From IMG/VR virus record IMGVR_UViG_3300032073_000238, positions 1 through 24,414 of that record: a DNA stretch of 24,414 nucleotides; one strand, 5' to 3'. Shown here piece after piece: positions 11,835 to 24,414 of the stretch. The number at the start of each line of letters is the position of its first letter. Within the stretch, counting starts at the first letter, position 1. Under the pieces are notes generated by a model, which worked only from the letters and a program-made list of their open reading frames with translations, ran no database searches and was not told the origin of the DNA. Source of the stretch: a virus. Both the position numbers and the translations under genes were made by a program.

Positions 11835-13256
11835 TTAGTTCATTAACATGAAATTGTTTGCACCTTGAACCACTAAGCATCTTTCAGATAAATAGTGTAC
11901 TTCCATTGCATCTAGATCAGATGTTACAGCTCCAACCGCTCCTGTTACCCAAGTTTTCATTTTTCTTGATTCAGTTTGCGAAGCTCTATATCTAACATGT
12001 AAGAATGGACGTTTTAGGTTTTTACCTAAAGTTTGATCGTATACAGACGATACACCCGCTGGAATTATAGCCCCACGAATATTACTAACAGTATCAATCA
12101 TACCACCTCTAGCAGCTGCATCGTTTAGATATTTCCAGTCAGACTTATAGAAGTCATAAGAACCTCTTCTGAAACCAGAGAAACCTAAGTTTAAAGCCAT
12201 GTCTTCAGAGTTATTGAATACTCCGTAAGAAGTACCACCAGCCCCATAAGAATTCATAGAAGCTAACATGTCATCCATTGCTAAAGCAGTTGATCTATCA
12301 ACAAACATCATGTTCTCCTCAATAGCGCCGTTTTTATCAAACTCAGCTAAGATAGCGTCAAATTCTGCTAAATCAGTAGCAGCATTAACACCAGTAACAC
12401 CAGAAGTTTGATTACCTCTTGCTTCGATAGCAGCGAATAAACCTTCAGTACCAGTCATTGTACCACCAGTAGCTGAATCAGTATTAGTAACCGTAACAGT
12501 TGCTGATACAGACTCAAGCATTGCCATTTCTAAATAATCAGTAAATCTAGCTCTAGTATCACCTTCGGCTTTTAAGTACCATAAGTATCCATTCTGACCG
12601 TCTTCACCAGAAACTTCAACCCAACCAATTGCAGACGCATCAGATCCAGAGATCTCATACTTGTCTTTTAATATGATTGGTTTGTTGCTATAAGATTTGA
12701 ACGTTGGCGCGTTAGCCCCGTCTCTTCCTGTAACACCTTTAACGTACTCAGAACCGTAAACTAATACACTAACGTTAGTTGTACTAGCAACACCAGCACC
12801 AGCGATATTCGCGTGAGTATAAGGTAATACTGCAATAGTATCAGCAGCCACGTCATTAACGAAAGCTCTAATAGTTGCATTAGCGTCTGAGATTAATACC
12901 ATGTCACCTTTACGTATACCGTGTGTAGATACAGATGCAGAACCATCAGTTTCGTTAACAATAGTAATTGTATTAGTTGATACAGTACAATTTTTGTAAT
13001 GTAAATGTAATCTACCTTGCTCAGACCAAACAACTTGGTCAGAGGCCATAGCTTCTTCAGCTCCAACTTGTGATAAGAAACCTGAGATAGTTCTGTTTCC
13101 AAAAATCTCTGCTTCTTTTTCCATCAAGTCTGGTAGGTATTGTTGCGACCAGTCATTCCCTGAGGAACCGTCAGCAAAGTCAATATATGCAGACGCAAGC
13201 GTCTGTTTTCTTGGCGATGGTGTCAATGCACCCGCCGTTACTCCTGTAATTGCCAT
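11835..13256 (-). CDS. Major capsid protein (HK97-like fold expected)
   Basis: This 473-residue protein follows the scaffold and is followed by a transcription terminator, as expected for the most abundant virion protein. It starts MAITGVTAGALTPSPRKQTL, then has YLPDLMEKEAEIFGNRTISG, a segment that recurs in marine phage capsids. Residues about 90-168 form an inserted beta domain (HGIRKGDMVLISDANATIR ... TTNVSVLVYG). The core then continues with RARFTDYLEMAMLESVSATV and ends with CLVVQGANNFMLMN. The HK97 fold is inferred from its role and size, not from a visible signature. No protease cleavage site can be assigned. Its ATG follows A/T-rich sequence without a Shine-Dalgarno motif. Confidence 0.87.
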   Translation of the reverse strand: MAITGVTAGALTPSPRKQTLASAYIDFADGSSGNDWSQQYLPDLMEKEAEIFGNRTISGFLSQVGAEEAMASDQVVWSEQGRLHLHYKNCTVSTNTITIVNETDGSASVSTHGIRKGDMVLISDANATIRAFVNDVAADTIAVLPYTHANIAGAGVASTTNVSVLVYGSEYVKGVTGRDGANAPTFKSYSNKPIILKDKYEISGSDASAIGWVEVSGEDGQNGYLWYLKAEGDTRARFTDYLEMAMLESVSATVTVTNTDSATGGTMTGTEGLFAAIEARGNQTSGVTGVNAATDLAEFDAILAEFDKNGAIEENMMFVDRSTALAMDDMLASMNSYGAGGTSYGVFNNSEDMALNLGFSGFRRGSYDFYKSDWKYLNDAAARGGMIDTVSNIRGAIIPAGVSSVYDQTLGKNLKRPFLHVRYRASQTESRKMKTWVTGAVGAVTSDLDAMEVHYLSERCLVVQGANNFMLMN

Positions 13257-14495: not shown

Positions 14496-16913
14496 TTAAC
14501 TAGGGTCAAACGCGCCTAAATCAAATCCCCCGCCTAAGGTATCATTACCTGCGGATTCAAAGTTTTTAGGTGGTTTTCCACTATTTCTTTGTTCAATCAT
14601 TTCTGATTGTTGTGTTGCTTGAATTTTTGTTCTCTCGTCTTTTCTATCTTCCTTTTGCTTTTCTCTATCTTTCATTCCATCAACTTCAACTCCTTTTAAT
14701 TGCATGTTGTATTGGAATTCTAGGGCCATTAACTCTTTCTTCATGGCAACTTCTTGTTGCATTTTCTGAGCGTCAATTTGCGCTTTCATTTGCTCAAGTT
14801 GAGCCTTATTTTGTGTTAATGCTTGTTCTTTTTGAACTTCAGTCTGGGCAGCCGCTTGAGCTGCTTGAGCGTTAGATTGGGCTTGCGCTTGGATATTTTC
14901 TAATTGCAACTGTCTGTCTCTTTCTTGTTTCTTAGCTCTTCTTATCTTTAACAATTGGTTTGCTAGTTTAACATTTTTTATATCCCTAACATCAATAGCA
15001 TCTTCAAGTTCTATGCTTTGTTGTTGCAGCGCCATTTGTATATTGTTTTCTAACATCATTTTTTCTTCTTCATCTGGCATTAAATCTATAAATATACCAA
15101 AGTCATATAAATGCAGATCTTGCATTTCTTCTAATGTAGCTACATTATGCACGCCTATCGCTTGAATAAAAGCGTCTTTAGTTGGAGAATACTCTATAAT
15201 GTCCGAAACTCTAAGTGATAAACACTCTGCTGTTTCAGCAGTTAAATATAAACCAGCCTGCAGTATATGTCTAGTTGCTGTATTAGAATTAGCAGCAGCT
15301 AATTTTTGCACCCCCACTAAAGCATTTTTATCTGGCATACTACCGTCTCTAGCTTCGTTAAGTCCGGTTACGTCTCTTATCATTTGTAAGTAGTAATTAT
15401 AATTACCTATAAGAGCTTGCATTTTGTTACCGCCAGATCCAGATGTTATTTCTTGAATAGGTACTTTACCAGGATTCATGTCGCCTTCACTTGTGAATGA
15501 TCTACCTATAACACTACCAGTTTGAAAGAACATGTTTAATGCTTCTTGTGGATTGTAGTTAGTTCCATTACCCAAATCAACTTCTGCCAAACCATCTGCG
15601 TCTAAATAAACACCATCTGGCACCATTCTAGCCATTACTTGTTGTAATTTCAAATGAGTTAACTGTATCATATCAGCAAAACCAGTTATACGTTTCACTA
15701 ATGAATCTATTTTTCCATTATACATTCTTGGCGCTACAATAGCATAGTTCATTTTTACTTTAGTAAAGTCACTTTTAGGACGCATCATATTAGATGCCAT
15801 TTCCCATCTAAGTAGTTTGTCAGTGCCTAAAATCATAGCGCCGTCATATAGACACTCTACAGATCGCAGCATTCTACTATATCCACCCTCTTTTTCTTGT
15901 GGTGGATTAAACGTGTCGTCTTTAGGTATAATTTTATCAGCACCTGTTCCAGTTTCTTTCACTTTATACACTTCGTTCATGTACGATTTCCAGTTGAAAT
16001 ATAAAACTTGAATAGTATTATTGTCCTCCTTATCATAGGCATGTATAGAGTTGTAATTAGATCTGTTGTTGGGTTTGTTTTTCATTATATCCTCAAGATC
16101 AACTTCTGTTAAATGAGGAAATTGTTTTGCTAATTCATTTACAGGGATAGTTTTAACCTCACCAACATAATATATATCGTCAAAATAAGGTGACTCAGTG
16201 TAAGAATAGACCAAGTTGGCTGGATCTACATAATCTATAACAACACCCTCAGAGGTATTAAACGAGGTTTTAACAGCACCTATACCCAACACCGTTAGAT
16301 CATAATAAAACTGCTTTTTAATTAATTCGTATTTATTACCTTCCATTAAAACATTTAAAGCTTGTTCTTCTGCTAATTCTACAGCCTGCTTGTAAGTTAA
16401 CTGCATGTGTAATTCTAACTCTTCTTTTGTTTCAGGCAAAGTATCCTCATCATTCTCAGCTATAGATATTCCAAAGGCCTCTTTAGAAAATTCATTTAAC
16501 TCTCTTGTTCTCATATCTGAAAGTATGGACTCCATATATTTTGTTCGCTTGGCAACACCATGTGGGTCTTGCGAGAACGCTTTTATGTCATAAGTTCTTT
16601 CAGCAATACCGTTCACAACTATATCCACAAATTTAGATATAATAGGTACTGGTTTCCAGTCTAAATTTAAATAGGACAAATCACCGTTTATAGATAATTC
16701 ATCCTTGTATTTTTGAATTGATTGCTCGCCACGAGCGTACAACCTTAAACTATGAAAATTGTTTTGATTAGATTTATATCTATTAAGACTTCTATCATTA
16801 TTAAACCACTCTTGCTCTATTGCTTTACCAACCTTTAAACCATAATCGTAGCTCAGCTTTTCAGCGTCACTTACAGTTTGATTTGGAAAATAACTATTGC
16901 CAGACTCTGCCAT
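14496..16913 (-). CDS. Portal protein with a long Gln-rich coiled-coil C-terminus
   Basis: This 805-residue protein follows the large terminase and precedes the scaffold and capsid genes, the standard place for the dodecameric portal through which DNA is packaged. The body contains helical and wing-like segments, for example ISKFVDIVVNGIAERTYDIK near residue 90 and MIQLTHLKLQQVMARMVPDG near 430. A conserved-looking VTGLNEARDGSMPDKNALVG occurs near 515-535. From about residue 625 to 770 it becomes a Gln/Ala/Lys-rich coiled coil (QLQLENIQAQAQSNAQAAQ), which could form the long barrel seen in podovirus portals. The very end carries FESAGNDTLGGGFDL, similar to a motif near the N-terminus of the scaffold. 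No frame break is seen. The assignment rests on gene order, size and architecture. Confidence 0.85.
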   Translation of the reverse strand: MAESGNSYFPNQTVSDAEKLSYDYGLKVGKAIEQEWFNNDRSLNRYKSNQNNFHSLRLYARGEQSIQKYKDELSINGDLSYLNLDWKPVPIISKFVDIVVNGIAERTYDIKAFSQDPHGVAKRTKYMESILSDMRTRELNEFSKEAFGISIAENDEDTLPETKEELELHMQLTYKQAVELAEEQALNVLMEGNKYELIKKQFYYDLTVLGIGAVKTSFNTSEGVVIDYVDPANLVYSYTESPYFDDIYYVGEVKTIPVNELAKQFPHLTEVDLEDIMKNKPNNRSNYNSIHAYDKEDNNTIQVLYFNWKSYMNEVYKVKETGTGADKIIPKDDTFNPPQEKEGGYSRMLRSVECLYDGAMILGTDKLLRWEMASNMMRPKSDFTKVKMNYAIVAPRMYNGKIDSLVKRITGFADMIQLTHLKLQQVMARMVPDGVYLDADGLAEVDLGNGTNYNPQEALNMFFQTGSVIGRSFTSEGDMNPGKVPIQEITSGSGGNKMQALIGNYNYYLQMIRDVTGLNEARDGSMPDKNALVGVQKLAAANSNTATRHILQAGLYLTAETAECLSLRVSDIIEYSPTKDAFIQAIGVHNVATLEEMQDLHLYDFGIFIDLMPDEEEKMMLENNIQMALQQQSIELEDAIDVRDIKNVKLANQLLKIRRAKKQERDRQLQLENIQAQAQSNAQAAQAAAQTEVQKEQALTQNKAQLEQMKAQIDAQKMQQEVAMKKELMALEFQYNMQLKGVEVDGMKDREKQKEDRKDERTKIQATQQSEMIEQRNSGKPPKNFESAGNDTLGGGFDLGAFDPS

Positions 16914-16917
16914 ATAT

Positions 16918-19131
16918 TTATTTTATTATTTGTGAATTAGTCCCAGTATTACTATACTTGGAAATGTTTATATTTAATTTAGGTTTTTCAACCTTAGCGT
17001 TTGGCGCATATAAATGCCTATTATTTGCCATAATAGCCAAACCAGAACTTATAGACGCATCATACTTCGTTCTTTTGTTTATATCGAACCTACTCCAATC
17101 ATTTAACAAAGCATTGAAATACAAGTCTCCAAAAGTTCCATCTTGTTTCACGCCTACGTGATCTTGAATATACATCTCGATTGCTGCCGCGTGAGCTTGT
17201 TTTATATCCTCACTAGAGTTTGGTATTCCACCAACTTCTTTCTCCGCTACAGATAATTTATTCCATATTTTATCAGGTCGATTCATAGAAAAACCTCTAT
17301 ACCCTCTTCTTCTTAAATAGTATAATAATCTAGGTTTATTATTCTCCGCGAGTATTGGCATTCCATAAAACACTAACGCCATTAAAACATCTTCAAAGAA
17401 TATTTCAGCCGTAGGTGGTCTTGATAAGTATTCTAAAAAGAAGCTATTCGCAGGAGCGTCCTCCATACTAAACCTGGTTAAGCCGTGTAGTGCTCCTTTA
17501 GATCCTTCTCCATCTACGGTTCCCGATATATCATAAGAGTCACAACCAAATGCCCCCATGTGTTCATTACCAGGATATTTTATACCATTTTTTAAAACCA
17601 CTCTATTTTGTATGCTAGAAGGTGGAACCCAACTAACTTTAAATCTACCCTTTGGATCTGGATAGAATATCACTTGTGAATCTTTAATTCCATTGACCCA
17701 TTGAAAATTACCTTGAGTAACTCCTAGGGTTCTAGACATTTCTTCGTTGTAATCTATCTGCTCGTATATCTTAACTAAGTTAAATATACTACCTTTTGAT
17801 TCATCCCTAAACGCGTGCTCTGTAGTTCTTGGGAACTGTCTGTAGAATTCGTTTAAAGCATCTTGATCTCCTTTTAAGCCATCTACTTCATTTTGCCAAC
17901 TATCTACTACTCCTATATCTATTAGTTCACCGTCTGGGGCAAACACATCTGTGTCAGGAGTAGTGAATACTGGAACTCCGTGCTCGTCAATAAATCCTTC
18001 GTAGTTCCACTCCATTGGGATAAACAAAGAGTATAAACCAGACTTTGTCTGACCATTTCTATTTCTTTTAGTGACGTCTGATGCATTGTATAGTTTTTTG
18101 AAGTTATCTCCACCTTTATCTAGGGCGTTGGAAGTTGACCCCATCATACACTTACCTATAATCCTACTACCTAATCTAAGACATGTTTTTGTAACACGCC
18201 AGTTGTTTAATATATTATCTGGTCTTTCCCATTTACCACTTTCATCATGTACTAATAATGCTAATTTTTCACCATCATAACTATTGTCACCTGTATTCTT
18301 CCAATCAATAGTAGTGTCTAACCCTTCAATTTCCTCCATGCCATCTGTAGCTGACATTTTCTTTCTTGTAAATTTACTAGCAGGCACTCTATAAGCAAGT
18401 TCGGATTTAGGACGATCCATACCATCTTGGACAGGTTTAAAAAAGAATGGATAGTTAATCGATATAGGAACAACTTTGTCTGTGAACATTTTTTTCGCAT
18501 CTGAACCTGTTTTAGATAGTATCCCATATCTACTATCACTCGATATAGTGGCCAAATTAACTGTTTCTGCAGATGACATGAACGAAAACCCTGATCTTCT
18601 GTTCTTTAGATAACACATACCGTAACATCTTTTGTCTGCTTTACAAGCCTCCCAGAATATAAAGAACAATCTATTTGCGTCCCTAAAGTCTGGAGCTCCA
18701 ACATCTATCTTGCTCCATTGCAAGTACATATAATGAGTTCCTACTATATAAGTTGGTTTACCATTGTTCATAAACCAAAACCCTTCGTCTCTTCTTTTAA
18801 ACTCCTCGTCTATATAATCGTACCACTGATCTTTTTTCTCTTCAGGATAGTTTCTCCAATCAAATATATTCTTTAAACGAGATAATTCTTTAGGTTGTTC
18901 AAATTTTACCCATTTGTTTTTGGGGTGCACGTACACTCCTTTTGGTTCCAACGGCAAGCCAATTCGCAAACCTTGGATTTCAATGACTTCACCAATTTTT
19001 CCCGTCTTTGAGATAACAACAATATCATGTTCTTTATTATATCCATATTTCCATTTTTTACCTTTGTTAAGACGACTAATAGTCGTTTTTTTAATTGGTT
19101 CTATTATTTTAAATAAATCTTGCTCGTACAT
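16918..19131 (-). CDS. terL: Terminase large subunit (DNA-packaging ATPase and nuclease)
   Basis: This is the packaging motor that moves DNA into the procapsid through the portal and cuts it. Counting from a GTG at 19134, the ATPase part has a Walker A-like YLKNRRSGFS near residues 176-184, a Walker B segment LALLVHDES at 291-299, and the coupling motif MGSTSN at 331-336. The RNase H-like nuclease part shows GCDSYD around 530-535, ILAENNK around 594-600, and a final Asp region around 684-692 (FDINKRTKYDAS). The length of about 737 residues is in the upper range and is similar to terminases of Bacteroidota podoviruses. I prefer the ATG at 19131, which overlaps the TGA of the previous gene. The GTG one codon upstream would add one residue. 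The portal gene starts five bases after its stop. Confidence 0.9.
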   Translation of the reverse strand: MYEQDLFKIIEPIKKTTISRLNKGKKWKYGYNKEHDIVVISKTGKIGEVIEIQGLRIGLPLEPKGVYVHPKNKWVKFEQPKELSRLKNIFDWRNYPEEKKDQWYDYIDEEFKRRDEGFWFMNNGKPTYIVGTHYMYLQWSKIDVGAPDFRDANRLFFIFWEACKADKRCYGMCYLKNRRSGFSFMSSAETVNLATISSDSRYGILSKTGSDAKKMFTDKVVPISINYPFFFKPVQDGMDRPKSELAYRVPASKFTRKKMSATDGMEEIEGLDTTIDWKNTGDNSYDGEKLALLVHDESGKWERPDNILNNWRVTKTCLRLGSRIIGKCMMGSTSNALDKGGDNFKKLYNASDVTKRNRNGQTKSGLYSLFIPMEWNYEGFIDEHGVPVFTTPDTDVFAPDGELIDIGVVDSWQNEVDGLKGDQDALNEFYRQFPRTTEHAFRDESKGSIFNLVKIYEQIDYNEEMSRTLGVTQGNFQWVNGIKDSQVIFYPDPKGRFKVSWVPPSSIQNRVVLKNGIKYPGNEHMGAFGCDSYDISGTVDGEGSKGALHGLTRFSMEDAPANSFFLEYLSRPPTAEIFFEDVLMALVFYGMPILAENNKPRLLYYLRRRGYRGFSMNRPDKIWNKLSVAEKEVGGIPNSSEDIKQAHAAAIEMYIQDHVGVKQDGTFGDLYFNALLNDWSRFDINKRTKYDASISSGLAIMANNRHLYAPNAKVEKPKLNINISKYSNTGTNSQIIK

Positions 19132-19406
19132 CACTTAGATCTTCCCTCTGCAAATCCTCTAAAAACTGTTTCCTTTTTCTCTTCAGGTTCCTTGCCTTCA
19201 AGCAAGTTCTCTTCTTCTTGGATTCTGTTAAGTATTTCAAATGCATCAAATATAGCTAGCTTTTTAGTAGCCGCAGCATTCTTTAATCTATCAGCTGATA
19301 TATCGTCGTCAGAATCTACAATAGGCTCTTTAGCGACCTTAATCAGTTCTTCCACTGCTCTCTGCCCAGCTTGGATTATATTCTTCTTCGTCTCCTTGAT
19401 ATTCAT
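19131..19406 (-). CDS. Possible terminase small subunit (91 aa)
   Basis: This small helical protein lies directly before the large terminase. With the internal ATG at 19406 it has 91 residues: MNIKETKKNIIQAGQRAVEE, then an acidic linker IVDSDDDISADRLKNAAATK and the helix KLAIFDAFEILNRIQEEENL. The C-terminus is charged (EEKKETVFRGFAEGRSK). An upstream ATG at 19457 would add 17 residues and deepen the overlap with the GroES-like gene, so the internal start is preferred. Position, size and helical build fit a small terminase, which recognises phage DNA and regulates the large subunit. No clear helix-turn-helix is seen, so the call is by context. Its TGA overlaps the ATG of the large terminase by one base (TGATG). 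Confidence 0.55.
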   Translation of the reverse strand: MNIKETKKNIIQAGQRAVEELIKVAKEPIVDSDDDISADRLKNAAATKKLAIFDAFEILNRIQEEENLLEGKEPEEKKETVFRGFAEGRSK

Positions 19407-19941
19407 ATTTGATTGTAATAAAATTAGATAAAACTCTATATAGTCTTTCACCGTCAACTATAAATTCATATTGACTACTTGGTCTAAAACCAACTAAGTC
19501 ATTTACTTCTACTGTACCGTCTGAATATTTAACAATACCTTGTAGAGGTTTTTCAGATTCAATATTAAATTGATCTATTGCTTTTAAAGGTTTTACAAAA
19601 CAATAACCTTTTGGAGCTGTCCACTTATCTTTTCTTTTGTATAAAAATATTTGATCGTGGCTTATAAAATAAGTAGACTCATTAAAATAGCTTCTACTAT
19701 TTTTCTCTATACCTTTTACATTGTGCCATCTTCTAAAAACATTGTGATGCACTATAACTGTGTCTCCAGCTTGTATTTCCGTATGTCCCGCTATAGGCGT
19801 AGATATAACAGTTGCCTCTCTATTTACATATTGATGATTAAAAATTTCAGTATTAAGTATTAATTCTGAATCACCAACTTTTGTAGTATTATTATATCTT
19901 TCTCCTTTTGGCGTTACAACAAAGTTGTGAACGCTTTTCAT
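19339..19941 (-). CDS. Tandem GroES-like (double chaperonin-10 fold) protein, putative
   Basis: This 200-residue protein can be read as two GroES-like halves. The first, residues 1-103, starts MKSVHNFVVTPKG. It then has a mobile-loop-sized segment with hydrophobic ELIL (26-29), the strand REATVISTP, IQAGDTVIVHHN and the closing STYFISHDQIFLYKR. This follows the order of the GroES encoded at 23919-24176 (AKIISCG, KDNDTIYYDKH, DTLYRVIRDGDVVLV). The second half, residues 110-182, has GYCFVKPL, LQGIVKYSDG, VEVNDLVGF and DGERLYRVLSNFITIKYE. It shares LYRV with GroES but lacks a mobile loop. An acidic tail of 18 residues follows. The role could be a co-chaperonin variant for capsid or portal folding, or a GroES-fold protein used for something else. 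The fold call is by eye. Its 3' end overlaps the next gene by 68 bases. Confidence 0.55.
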   Translation of the reverse strand: MKSVHNFVVTPKGERYNNTTKVGDSELILNTEIFNHQYVNREATVISTPIAGHTEIQAGDTVIVHHNVFRRWHNVKGIEKNSRSYFNESTYFISHDQIFLYKRKDKWTAPKGYCFVKPLKAIDQFNIESEKPLQGIVKYSDGTVEVNDLVGFRPSSQYEFIVDGERLYRVLSNFITIKYEYQGDEEEYNPSWAESSGRTD

Positions 19942-22965: not shown

Positions 22966-23394
22966 TTATGCTACTCCGTAGGTAATAGCACAAGATGCAA
23001 TTGAGCTGTCTAATTGTATTGAGTTAACATCATCACAAACAGTAATAAAACCATCTGTGTTTGGACCAGAATTCAAGTGAGAAACTAAAGTTCTCATAAC
23101 TCCTTCGGCTAAAGTTCCAGCGGCAAGAGTCAATACAACCTTATCGTAAGCAATTGCACCGGCTGTAACAGCGGCAGTTTGAGCGGCCATAATAGCCGTA
23201 GCGTCACCACCCGTGTTGTCTATAGTGTAAGCTGGTTGTGCAAAAGTATTTACCACTCTACTTGAAAGCGGTTTAGAGCTTTTAAATCTAAACTCAAGAG
23301 AAGTATCTCCTTCGTGTGTTAATGATAACATGTTGCTAAGTGGGTATGTAGTAGCGTCGTTATCGGCGTCGTTAAAAAATAAGAATTTTTCCAT
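22966..23394 (-). CDS. Putative virion-associated protein, second of two tandem paralogs (142 aa)
   Basis: This is a paralog of the upstream 142-residue protein with exactly the same length. The N-terminus (MEKFLFFNDADNDA), the middle (AAQTAAVTAGAIAYD) and the C-terminus (GFITVCDDVNSI, SSIASCAITYGVA) are shared. The region around residues 28-70 and the stretch before the C-terminal block have diverged most. It is preceded by an AT-rich 27-base gap without a Shine-Dalgarno motif. Its TAA stop is followed almost at once by the TTG start of the winged-helix-like gene, so the two are probably co-translated. The function is unknown; a minor capsid or decoration role is a guess from context. Confidence 0.7.
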   Translation of the reverse strand: MEKFLFFNDADNDATTYPLSNMLSLTHEGDTSLEFRFKSSKPLSSRVVNTFAQPAYTIDNTGGDATAIMAAQTAAVTAGAIAYDKVVLTLAAGTLAEGVMRTLVSHLNSGPNTDGFITVCDDVNSIQLDSSIASCAITYGVA

Positions 23395-23463
23395 TTTATA
23401 TATATTTTTTTTAGTTAATAATTATGCTACTGCGTAAGTTATTGCACAAGATGCAATTGAGCT
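22988..23463. repeat. Duplicated 3' gene ends with a 20-base identical block (22988-23007 and 23444-23463)
   Basis: The plus-strand block gcacaagatgcaattgagct occurs at 22988-23007 and again at 23444-23463. It encodes SSIASCA near the C-terminus of both 142-residue paralogs. It is a direct-repeat trace of the gene duplication and a possible site for homologous recombination that could delete or amplify one copy. Confidence 0.75.
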
Positions 23464-23850
23464 ATGTATAAACACACTGTTTACATCATCACATATAGTT
23501 ATAAAGCCAGTTGAATGAGGAGCCTCGTTAATACCTCTGCATATCGCGCTAACCGCGTCTTTTGCCAAAGTTCCAGCAGTCACAGTTAAAGTAACGTCAT
23601 CGTAAGCAATCGCTCCAGCAGTTATAGCCGCTGTTTGAGCTGCTTTACCTTGAATATCATCACTTCCTTCATCAACAGTTGTTATTGCTGTTAGACCTGG
23701 TGTTGCAACTACTCTTTCTGATAAAGGCTTAGAGCTTGCAAACCTCATCATTACCGTATCGTTAGCTTCATGTGATATAGACAATAAATTGTCTAGTGGG
23801 TACAATGCCGCGTCATTATCGCCATCGTTAAAAAATAAGAATTTTTTCAT
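23422..23850 (-). CDS. Putative virion-associated protein, first of two tandem paralogs (142 aa)
   Basis: The family is not recognised. The protein is 142 residues, with no signal peptide or membrane segment, and is rich in Ala, Thr, Ser and Asp. It opens with MKKFLFFNDGDNDA and ends with GFITICDDVNSVF and SSIASCAITYAVA. It aligns without gaps over its full length to the next gene downstream (22966-23394), with more than half of the residues identical by eye. That points to tandem duplication followed by divergence. The even length, beta-prone composition and position in a late cluster fit a small structural or decoration protein, but this is inference. The start is the first ATG after a G-free A-rich leader, and no Shine-Dalgarno motif is present. 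Confidence 0.7.
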   Translation of the reverse strand: MKKFLFFNDGDNDAALYPLDNLLSISHEANDTVMMRFASSKPLSERVVATPGLTAITTVDEGSDDIQGKAAQTAAITAGAIAYDDVTLTVTAGTLAKDAVSAICRGINEAPHSTGFITICDDVNSVFIHSSIASCAITYAVA

Positions 23851-23918: not shown

Positions 23919-24176
23919 TTAATCTACTAGAACAACGTCACCATCACGAATGACTCTATAAAGAGTATCTCTCCATGATATGTCGTGCCCAGCATGTTTA
24001 TCGTAATATATCGTGTCATTATCTTTTAAACCTTCTACAAGATTTCCACACGATATTATTTTTGCTTTTATATAACGGTTGTCTACATCAGTATCGTCCG
24101 TCATTATAAGACCAGCAACCTTTTTAGGTTCTGTCTTTATTCTGTCTACTATAATATATCTATTGATTGCTTTCAT
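23919..24176 (-). CDS. groES: Co-chaperonin GroES (chaperonin-10)
   Basis: This 85-residue protein has the GroES layout: an N-terminal strand (MKAINRYIIVDRIK), then a mobile-loop segment at residues 14-28 with the hydrophobic triplet LIM in the place of IVL of E. coli GroES. After it come the core strand AKIISCG, the turn LKDNDTIYYDKHAG and the closing LYRVIRDGDVVLV. It is slightly shorter than bacterial GroES (about 97 residues), which is common for phage co-chaperonins such as those related to T4 gp31. It should cap the GroEL chamber as a heptamer. Its ATG lies inside the end of groEL, so translation is probably coupled. The role in phage capsid or tail protein folding is inferred from T4-type phages, not shown here. 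Confidence 0.88.
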   Translation of the reverse strand: MKAINRYIIVDRIKTEPKKVAGLIMTDDTDVDNRYIKAKIISCGNLVEGLKDNDTIYYDKHAGHDISWRDTLYRVIRDGDVVLVD

Positions 24177-24414
24177 TTGTTCTCATATTTGAAATTACAC
24201 AATCTGCAGATATAATTGTTGATACTACGCTCACTGCATTTTTGAGCGCCGATTTTGTAACCAAAACCGGATCGATTATCCCGCTAACTATCATACTAAC
24301 GGGTTTGCCAGTTATAACGTTGATACCAGTACCTTCACTAAGATCTGTAGATGCTTTTAATCCAGCGTTATCTAATATAGTATGGAAAGGAGCGGTTATA
24401 GCTTTAAGCAGTAT
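24160..24414 (-). CDS. groEL: Chaperonin GroEL, C-terminal fragment (gene runs off the right edge)
   Basis: This is the 3' end (84 codons plus TAG) of a gene that begins beyond the window. The reading frame is open from the edge and ends with MRTNESNQ. The segment reading GIIDPVLVTKSALKNAVSVV matches the GroEL equatorial-domain signature (E. coli: GILDP followed by VTRSAL and AASVA), whose Asp helps bind ATP. An upstream segment, ITAPFHTILDNAG, matches the family's ALRAPLRQI..NAG region. The Gly-Met-rich tail typical of many bacterial GroELs is absent, and the protein ends in a short polar tail instead. By family, GroEL forms the double-ring ATP-driven folding chamber in the cytoplasm; phage copies are thought to fold virion proteins. 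The last 17 bases overlap groES, so the two are probably translated together. The order groEL then groES is the reverse of the usual bacterial operon. A different group I chaperonin paralog is the only realistic alternative. Confidence 0.88.
   Translation of the reverse strand: MLLKAITAPFHTILDNAGLKASTDLSEGTGINVITGKPVSMIVSGIIDPVLVTKSALKNAVSVVSTIISADCVISNMRTNESNQ

Follow-up and report, generated by a model that had tools for sequence, protein, structure and literature searches.

We identified, in a virus record, a gene whose product is predicted to join two GroES folds head to tail in a single chain and is very probably a co-chaperonin; we further consider it likely that this tandem protein works with GroEL as a double-domain co-chaperonin for a virion protein. 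The record, 24.4 kb in length, is the whole stretch of DNA that was analyzed and is hereafter called the window. It carries terminase, portal, and virion protein genes, which separates it from the plastid origin of Cpn20, the chloroplast protein that the tandem protein most resembles in architecture. The evidence comes from predicted structure for both halves of the protein, from profile comparison for the C-terminal half, and from the retention of a hydrophobic loop, a gene neighborhood, and chaperonin partners across a large phage family.

The tandem gene, its relatives, and its gene neighborhood

The tandem gene and the neighboring genes considered here are as follows:

19339–19941, minus strand: tandem (double-domain) GroES-like gene, putative co-chaperonin, ATG start, 200 aa
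19941–20162, minus strand: small ORF of 73 aa directly upstream of the tandem gene, with no PHROG match at E ≤ 1
19131–19406, minus strand: small ORF of about 91 aa before the terminase large subunit (TerL), overlapping the 3' end of the tandem gene
16918–19134, minus strand: terminase large subunit (phrog_6681, E 1.3e-174)
14496–16913, minus strand: portal protein (phrog_6547, E 1.7e-159)
11835–13256, minus strand: virion structural protein of 473 aa (phrog_13704 'virion structural protein', E 7.8e-103)

The tandem ORF is a real gene, backed by homologs in phage records and IMG/VR. Its product matched phrog_13932 'co-chaperonin GroES' over residues 1–123 (E 8.3e-17); searches against Pfam recovered nothing at E ≤ 1, those against NCBIfam nothing at E ≤ 0.1, and a PADLOC search with both the tandem protein and the standalone GroES of the window likewise nothing at E ≤ 0.1. 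Homologs covering at least 80% of its length were present in 77 of 50,697 phage records, comprising 68 Flavobacterium 'elemo' phages, 7 Cellulophaga phages (Calle, phi38:1, phi40:1), Maribacter phage Panino, and the Manatee Spring podovirus MW202828, with the elemo and Panino proteins only 32–34% identical to that of the window. When IMG/VR was scanned with the window protein, at least 599 of 600 candidate stretches encoded relatives; other scans confirmed 540, 20, 4, and 432 stretches in overlapping sets, the scan with the Panino protein as query found relatives in 0 of its 13 stretches, and the genome collection contributed nine tandem loci in MAG contigs.

Public annotations of these homologs vary between 'chaperonin cpn10', 'co-chaperonin GroES', and 'hypothetical'. 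In Table 2 of Bartlau et al. (PMC8776804), 'chaperonin cpn10' is listed among the Pervagoviridae core genes, the entry leaving unspecified which GroES-type gene is meant; in the Calle_1 record it is the tandem gene itself that bears this name. A passage of the Panino paper (PMC11590407) reports GroEL and GroES homologs. Our literature search, which covered titles, the beginnings of abstracts, and passages of open-licence papers, returned no phage protein described as a tandem GroES. The gene is therefore already known by name in public phage records and, as far as we found, its double-domain nature is apparently not recorded there.

The preliminary description of this stretch, made from sequence alone, had pointed to the packaging genes next door, and this placement extends across the family: the terminase gene lies downstream of the tandem gene, no more than 1.5 kb away, at all 227 loci that offer 1.8 kb or more of room, and within 600 bp at 220 of 260, with an extra gene in between at the five inspected among the 40 misses. 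An extra frame of about 160–195 aa separates the tandem gene from the small pre-TerL ORF at loci L118, L122, L127, L091, and L189. On the other side, a relative of the 73-aa ORF stands directly upstream at 259 of the 262 loci with room (71–80 aa in five examples), and it may be a functional partner of the tandem protein. The neighborhood offers some further observations. The pre-TerL ORF weakly resembles residues 71–148 of the longer Calle TerL (E 0.071), and the elemo and Panino TerLs are likewise about 140 aa longer than that of the window, which suggests gene fission or fusion. Two adjacent 142-aa ORFs on the minus strand (22966–23394 and 23422–23850) look like paralogs by eye, the former having no PHROG match at E ≤ 0.01, and the window contains no tRNAs. 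The terminase small subunit was also considered as an identity for the tandem protein and was ruled out, the predicted fold being that of GroES.

So fixed a position, which in four annotated phages holds relative to both terminase and portal, would also suit a repurposed GroES fold, serving as a head-assembly or packaging factor with terminase or portal and dispensing with GroEL binding. We regard this as unlikely; the phi38:1 record, for instance, calls several neighbors 'structural' but not the tandem gene. Under the co-chaperonin reading, the packaging and capsid neighborhood, together with the precedent of T4 gp31 as given in passages of PMC6318259, points to a virion protein as the client. 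The 473-aa virion structural protein is a possible candidate for both the major capsid protein and the folding client.

Predicted fold and sequence affinities of the two halves

The tandem protein divides into the following parts:

19630–19941, minus strand: N-terminal GroES-fold domain, residues 1–104 (predicted model)
19822–19896, minus strand: mobile-loop-like segment of the N domain, residues 16–40, with the triad LIL at 19855–19863
19396–19629, minus strand: C-terminal Cpn10 domain, residues 105–182, with a shortened mobile loop (HHalign and predicted fold)
19339–19395, minus strand: C-terminal extension containing EEYNPSWAESS, overlapping the next ORF

AlphaFold2 modeling of the whole protein from 77 family sequences gave a mean pLDDT of 85.0 and a pTM of 0.77, and residues 1–104 modeled alone reached 93.8 and 0.81. 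In a Foldseek search of the PDB, the whole model retrieved 7ekq_R first (E 3.2e-4, TM-score by query length 0.53) and as the sole match at E ≤ 0.001, followed by 7ekq_Q and then by GroES/Cpn10 chains; 7ekq_R, named 'Cpn20 co-chaperonin subunit', is a Cpn20 chain from a ClpP complex. VIA-align superposed the two with Z 9.6 over 156 residues (rmsd 3.8), and because the alignment spans residues 1–180 of the model against 11–194 of the chain, both domains align simultaneously, head to tail in one chain, which suggests that the predicted within-chain arrangement resembles that of Cpn20. Rows 2–16 of the same comparison were single GroES-family domains, all placed on the C-half except 8wuw_a (N-half, Z 7.9). 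Among predicted viral structures, S0A356, the 'Chaperonin cpn10' of Cellulophaga phage phi18:3, matched over the full length (E 1.7e-11).

The provenance of 7ekq_R raises a different role, that of capping or inhibiting the ClpP protease of the host in the manner of the Chlamydomonas Cpn11/20/23 complex, which a passage of PMC8889267 describes as a heterotetramer of CPN11, CPN20, and CPN23 on ClpP. We hold this to be highly improbable, and the best match may only reflect how few tandem co-chaperonins have been solved.

Taken singly, both halves adopt the GroES beta-barrel in the predicted models, as the preliminary description had anticipated, and neither shows a different fold. Against GroES 8wuc_a, the C-half of the model scored Z 8.3 (rmsd 2.2) and the N-half modeled alone Z 8.2 (81 residues aligned, target 94, rmsd 2.8), the latter barely above the level of 8 under which a VIA-align Z can reflect a common arrangement. 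T4 gp31 aligned with Z 6.6 to the N-half alone and Z 5.6 to the C-half; GroES and T4 gp31 were the two comparators initially proposed, but chloroplast Cpn20 is closer in architecture. For the N-half alone, chains of the Cpn10 family filled the first 15 VIA-align rows, with Z falling from 8.2 to 5.8; after them came dehydrogenases and reductases, enzymes that contain a GroES-like domain. Foldseek against the PDB returned no match to the N-half alone at E ≤ 0.001; its first 21 rows were nevertheless all GroES/Cpn10 chains (best E 0.03, probability 1.00).

Profile–profile comparison with Cpn10, suggested at the outset for each half, gave a significant match for one of them. With HHalign, the C-half matched seven GroES sequences, drawn from seven of the eight MAG genomes searched, at Prob 96 and E 3.9e-9, and phage GroES at Prob 75. 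The whole-family profile reached solved GroES through the C-half only (E 0.006). Pfam Cpn10 (PF00166) was matched by 16 of 77 tandem family members at E ≤ 0.1 (best 2.2e-6), and the relatives L218, L219, and L216 passed the curated cut-off in their C-halves (26.4, 26.9, and 28.0 bits). The N-half gave no significant match to MAG GroES (Prob 4.5), phage GroES (6.1), or the C-half (3); across eight HHalign comparisons, two of them repeats, with all 77 sequences, a diverse 14, or three of Cellulophaga type as input, Prob ranged from 1.7 to 34 and none was significant. Hence sequence and fold agree on Cpn10 for the C-half, whereas the assignment of the N-half rests on fold: it is predicted to be a GroES fold, from which its homology to Cpn10 appears probable. 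The missing sequence match of the N-half, with a Z barely beyond the common range, weighs against the co-chaperonin reading, as does the lack of Pfam and NCBIfam matches to the window protein itself.

So does a motif that GroES does not explain. In 77 sequences, H65 and N67 of an HHN motif in the N-half (residues 65–69; 19735–19749, minus strand) are invariant, and the motif is apparently no GroES feature. The 77-sequence family alignment consisted of the window protein, L187, L190, and 74 proteins chosen at 88% to represent a pool of 273; L082–L085 were excluded, and L081 was entered with its true end. The EEYNPSWAESS extension, among 16 sequences compared, occurs in the window, L021, L186, L256, and L299 and is missing from the other 11.

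Mobile loops, chaperonin partners, and the possible composition of a lid

Two further chaperonin-type genes lie at the end of the window:

23919–24176, minus strand: standalone single-domain GroES, 85 aa, with a mobile-loop-like AGLIM (Pfam Cpn10 30.1 bits against a cut-off of 21.1, 4.9e-7)
24160–24414, minus strand: phage GroEL, last 84 residues, cut by the window edge (108 bits, E 1.5e-35 against the phage GroEL profile)

In the tandem protein, the loop segment of the N-half is modeled as two strands (19–22 and 25–28). Its triad at window residues 27–29, LIL in the window, consists of hydrophobic residues in 260 sequences of an alignment of 274 from which redundant entries were not removed; LIL, FIV, and LLL are the commonest forms. 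The hydrophobic mobile-loop-like segment first noticed in the window thus recurs through the family. By position and hydrophobicity, a mobile loop with GroEL-binding-type residues is recognizable in the N-half only. The C-half loop, lying between P118 and G135, measures 16–18 residues in 269 of 274 sequences (16 in the window) and 26–27 in the remaining five, three of which are Calle/phi38:1 proteins (Calle counted twice) and the other two L218 and L219. The loops of the latter pair are of canonical GroES type (ETKMIGSIIVPNSGETHKG and ETKKIGSIIVQNSGDVHKG, vs TKTASGIIIPDNAKEKPQKG in a MAG-set GroES); because they keep it, the C-half loop is not absent family-wide, and the original statement that the second half lacks the loop applies, as a shortening, to most members but not to all. 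One GroEL-binding-type loop per two folds, as first described, does hold for the window lineage. The simplest history would be a two-loop ancestor from which one loop was lost in most lineages.

These loops cut both ways for the repurposed fold introduced above. The short C-half loop and the conserved HHN motif are in keeping with it, and one long loop per tandem chain would make an odd lid design for a co-chaperonin; the triad kept in the N-half is, however, hard to explain without GroEL binding.

The partners bear on the same choice. The window's GroES is complete, but its GroEL, reported at first simply as a separate gene, is represented by an edge-cut C-terminus; with the tandem gene, the three chaperonin-type genes suggested for this phage are present. 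Since GroES sits elsewhere in the L082, L083, and L085 genomes, whole records were searched rather than flanks; in the fetched flanks it had been found at 67 of 273 loci, and at 49 of the 85 with more than 6 kb upstream, with a median distance from tandem gene to standalone GroES of 4015 nt at the 67 loci with both. Among 34 tandem-bearing whole records, picked largely for length and including near-duplicates (elemo phages; Calle and phi38:1), GroEL occurred in 28 (18/22 plus 10/12) and standalone GroES in 29 (18/22 plus 11/12, one below the curated cut-off). In the 23 records of at least 45 kb, counted by hand, GroEL was present in 22 and standalone GroES in all 23, and this co-occurrence in nearly all long records speaks against a fold that no longer binds GroEL. 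The exception is G029, a record of 72.8 kb in which a standalone GroES accompanies the tandem gene but GroEL is absent; its tandem protein is L218, with canonical loops. It follows that phage GroEL is not obligatory, an observation that favors repurposing and counts against the co-chaperonin reading. The other five GroEL-negative records, of 31–42 kb, may be fragments. Conversely, elemo GroEL was matched in 245 phage records at E ≤ 1e-10 and the tandem protein was detectable by tblastn in 77, so that many GroEL-bearing phages have no detectable tandem protein.

Standalone phage GroES proteins carry a glycine–hydrophobic loop motif (AGLIM, GGLLI, and the like) in 12 of 13 inspected; the loop of the phi38:1 protein, GSGMTFRP, is less clear than the other 12. 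Phage phi38:1 has all three genes, with GroEL and GroES far from the tandem gene in separate modules. That GroEL and GroES can sit elsewhere in the genome is compatible with repurposing, and the distance in phi38:1 is a point against the co-chaperonin reading. A passage of PMC13288928 reports methylated peptides of the phi38:1 GroEL in infected cells and free virions, under a gene number that differs from the record's; because such peptides were detected, the phage GroEL of this group is made. Two records show peculiarities of their own. The GroEL frame of L211 (record G016), about 494 aa, is missing the profile stretch of about 155–239; the gap may be genuine or may stem from assembly. G026, the genome behind L194, has 11 Cpn10 matches, each on its own contig of a single MAG, the first far outscoring the other ten; several phage contigs have perhaps been binned together.

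In the co-chaperonin reading, which we prefer, the two joined GroES folds would occupy adjacent places in the ring of the lid, like those of chloroplast Cpn20. The tandem protein would cap phage GroEL, or host GroEL where the phage has none, while a virion protein made in large amounts folds at the expense of ATP. The capsid protein would be the most likely such client, with T4 gp31 as the model for this role. As to the composition of the lid, we tentatively entertain a mixed ring in which a single standalone GroES joins three tandem chains, which would provide seven domains and four mobile loops. Three tandem chains at one loop each plus one GroES give exactly the four loops reported as the minimum for binding GroEL, a coincidence that is suggestive but not proof. 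Seven domains are not compulsory, because engineered lids with six or with eight likewise function with GroEL, according to a passage of PMC5780408.

A second version of the same reading, possible though short of probable, has the tandem protein forming its own lid of three or four chains apart from the standalone GroES, for a different client or infection phase. Passages of PMC3542282 and PMC4242682 state that Cpn20 alone makes functional tetramers, and the spacing of the GroES-type genes, about 4 kb and in phi38:1 across separate modules, would allow separate expression. Three such chains would nonetheless offer three loops, below the reported minimum, and four chains would reach four loops at the price of eight domains on a seven-fold ring.

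For the mixed lid, we would venture, though doubtfully, that phages evolved the three-plus-one arrangement independently of chloroplasts and that most lineages then stripped one loop from each tandem chain, leaving an asymmetric lid with a weaker hold for bulky clients. Stripping would leave four loops, create loop-free positions, and weaken the hold on GroEL, tuning the lid to a bulky virion client.

Comparison with known systems

Phages with a Cpn20-like architecture would constitute a second natural experiment in how subunits of two domains are accommodated on a GroEL ring of seven-fold symmetry, and with how many binding loops. Direct tests of this question are within reach, given the loop series, which runs from two GroES-type loops in L218 and L219 to a single one in the lineage of the window, and given that phi38:1 and Calle are in culture. 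A tandem lid could also explain why one phage carries three chaperonin genes.

Chloroplast Cpn20 (Cpn21) is alike in its two Cpn10-type domains joined head to tail, its similar size, and its full-length structural match. It occurs in plastids, whereas the tandem protein is found in phages, the cultured ones being phages of Flavobacteriia, and the phage N-half has diverged far from Cpn10. In apicomplexan Cpn20, according to a passage of PMC3542282, each domain keeps its mobile loop and its roof loop, whereas most phage members have one short mobile loop; because it is the C-half mobile loop that is short, we note the resemblance in architecture and do not file the protein as Cpn20. The phage tandem probably arose independently of Cpn20, and double-domain co-chaperonins are called chloroplast-specific in passages of two reviews (PMC5780408, PMC5859369). 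Plastid-type organelles with Cpn20, the apicoplast excepted, also use single-domain Cpn10 (a passage of PMC5780408), and plastid Cpn20 and Cpn10 subunits join as functional hetero-oligomers with seven Cpn10 domains (a passage of PMC3542282). By analogy, this suggests that the phage lid would restore a seven-domain symmetry, not change it as initially suggested.

T4 gp31 shares with the tandem protein a phage-encoded GroES fold. It lacks roof loops, according to a passage of PMC6318259, and no segment of roof-loop length is apparent by inspection in either tandem half. It differs in being a single-domain heptamer that acts on host GroEL, whereas the tandem protein is usually accompanied by phage GroEL. 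The closest counterparts are the phrog_13932-type 'chaperonin cpn10' proteins of Cellulophaga (Callevirus) and Flavobacterium elemo phages, which are direct homologs in the same gene order; phrog_13932 is also the second PHROG match of the window's standalone GroES, through the C-terminal half of the profile (positions 112–197, E 9.4e-5). The Cellulophaga proteins have a longer C-half loop than the window tandem protein, and the annotations consulted for these proteins do not mention two domains.
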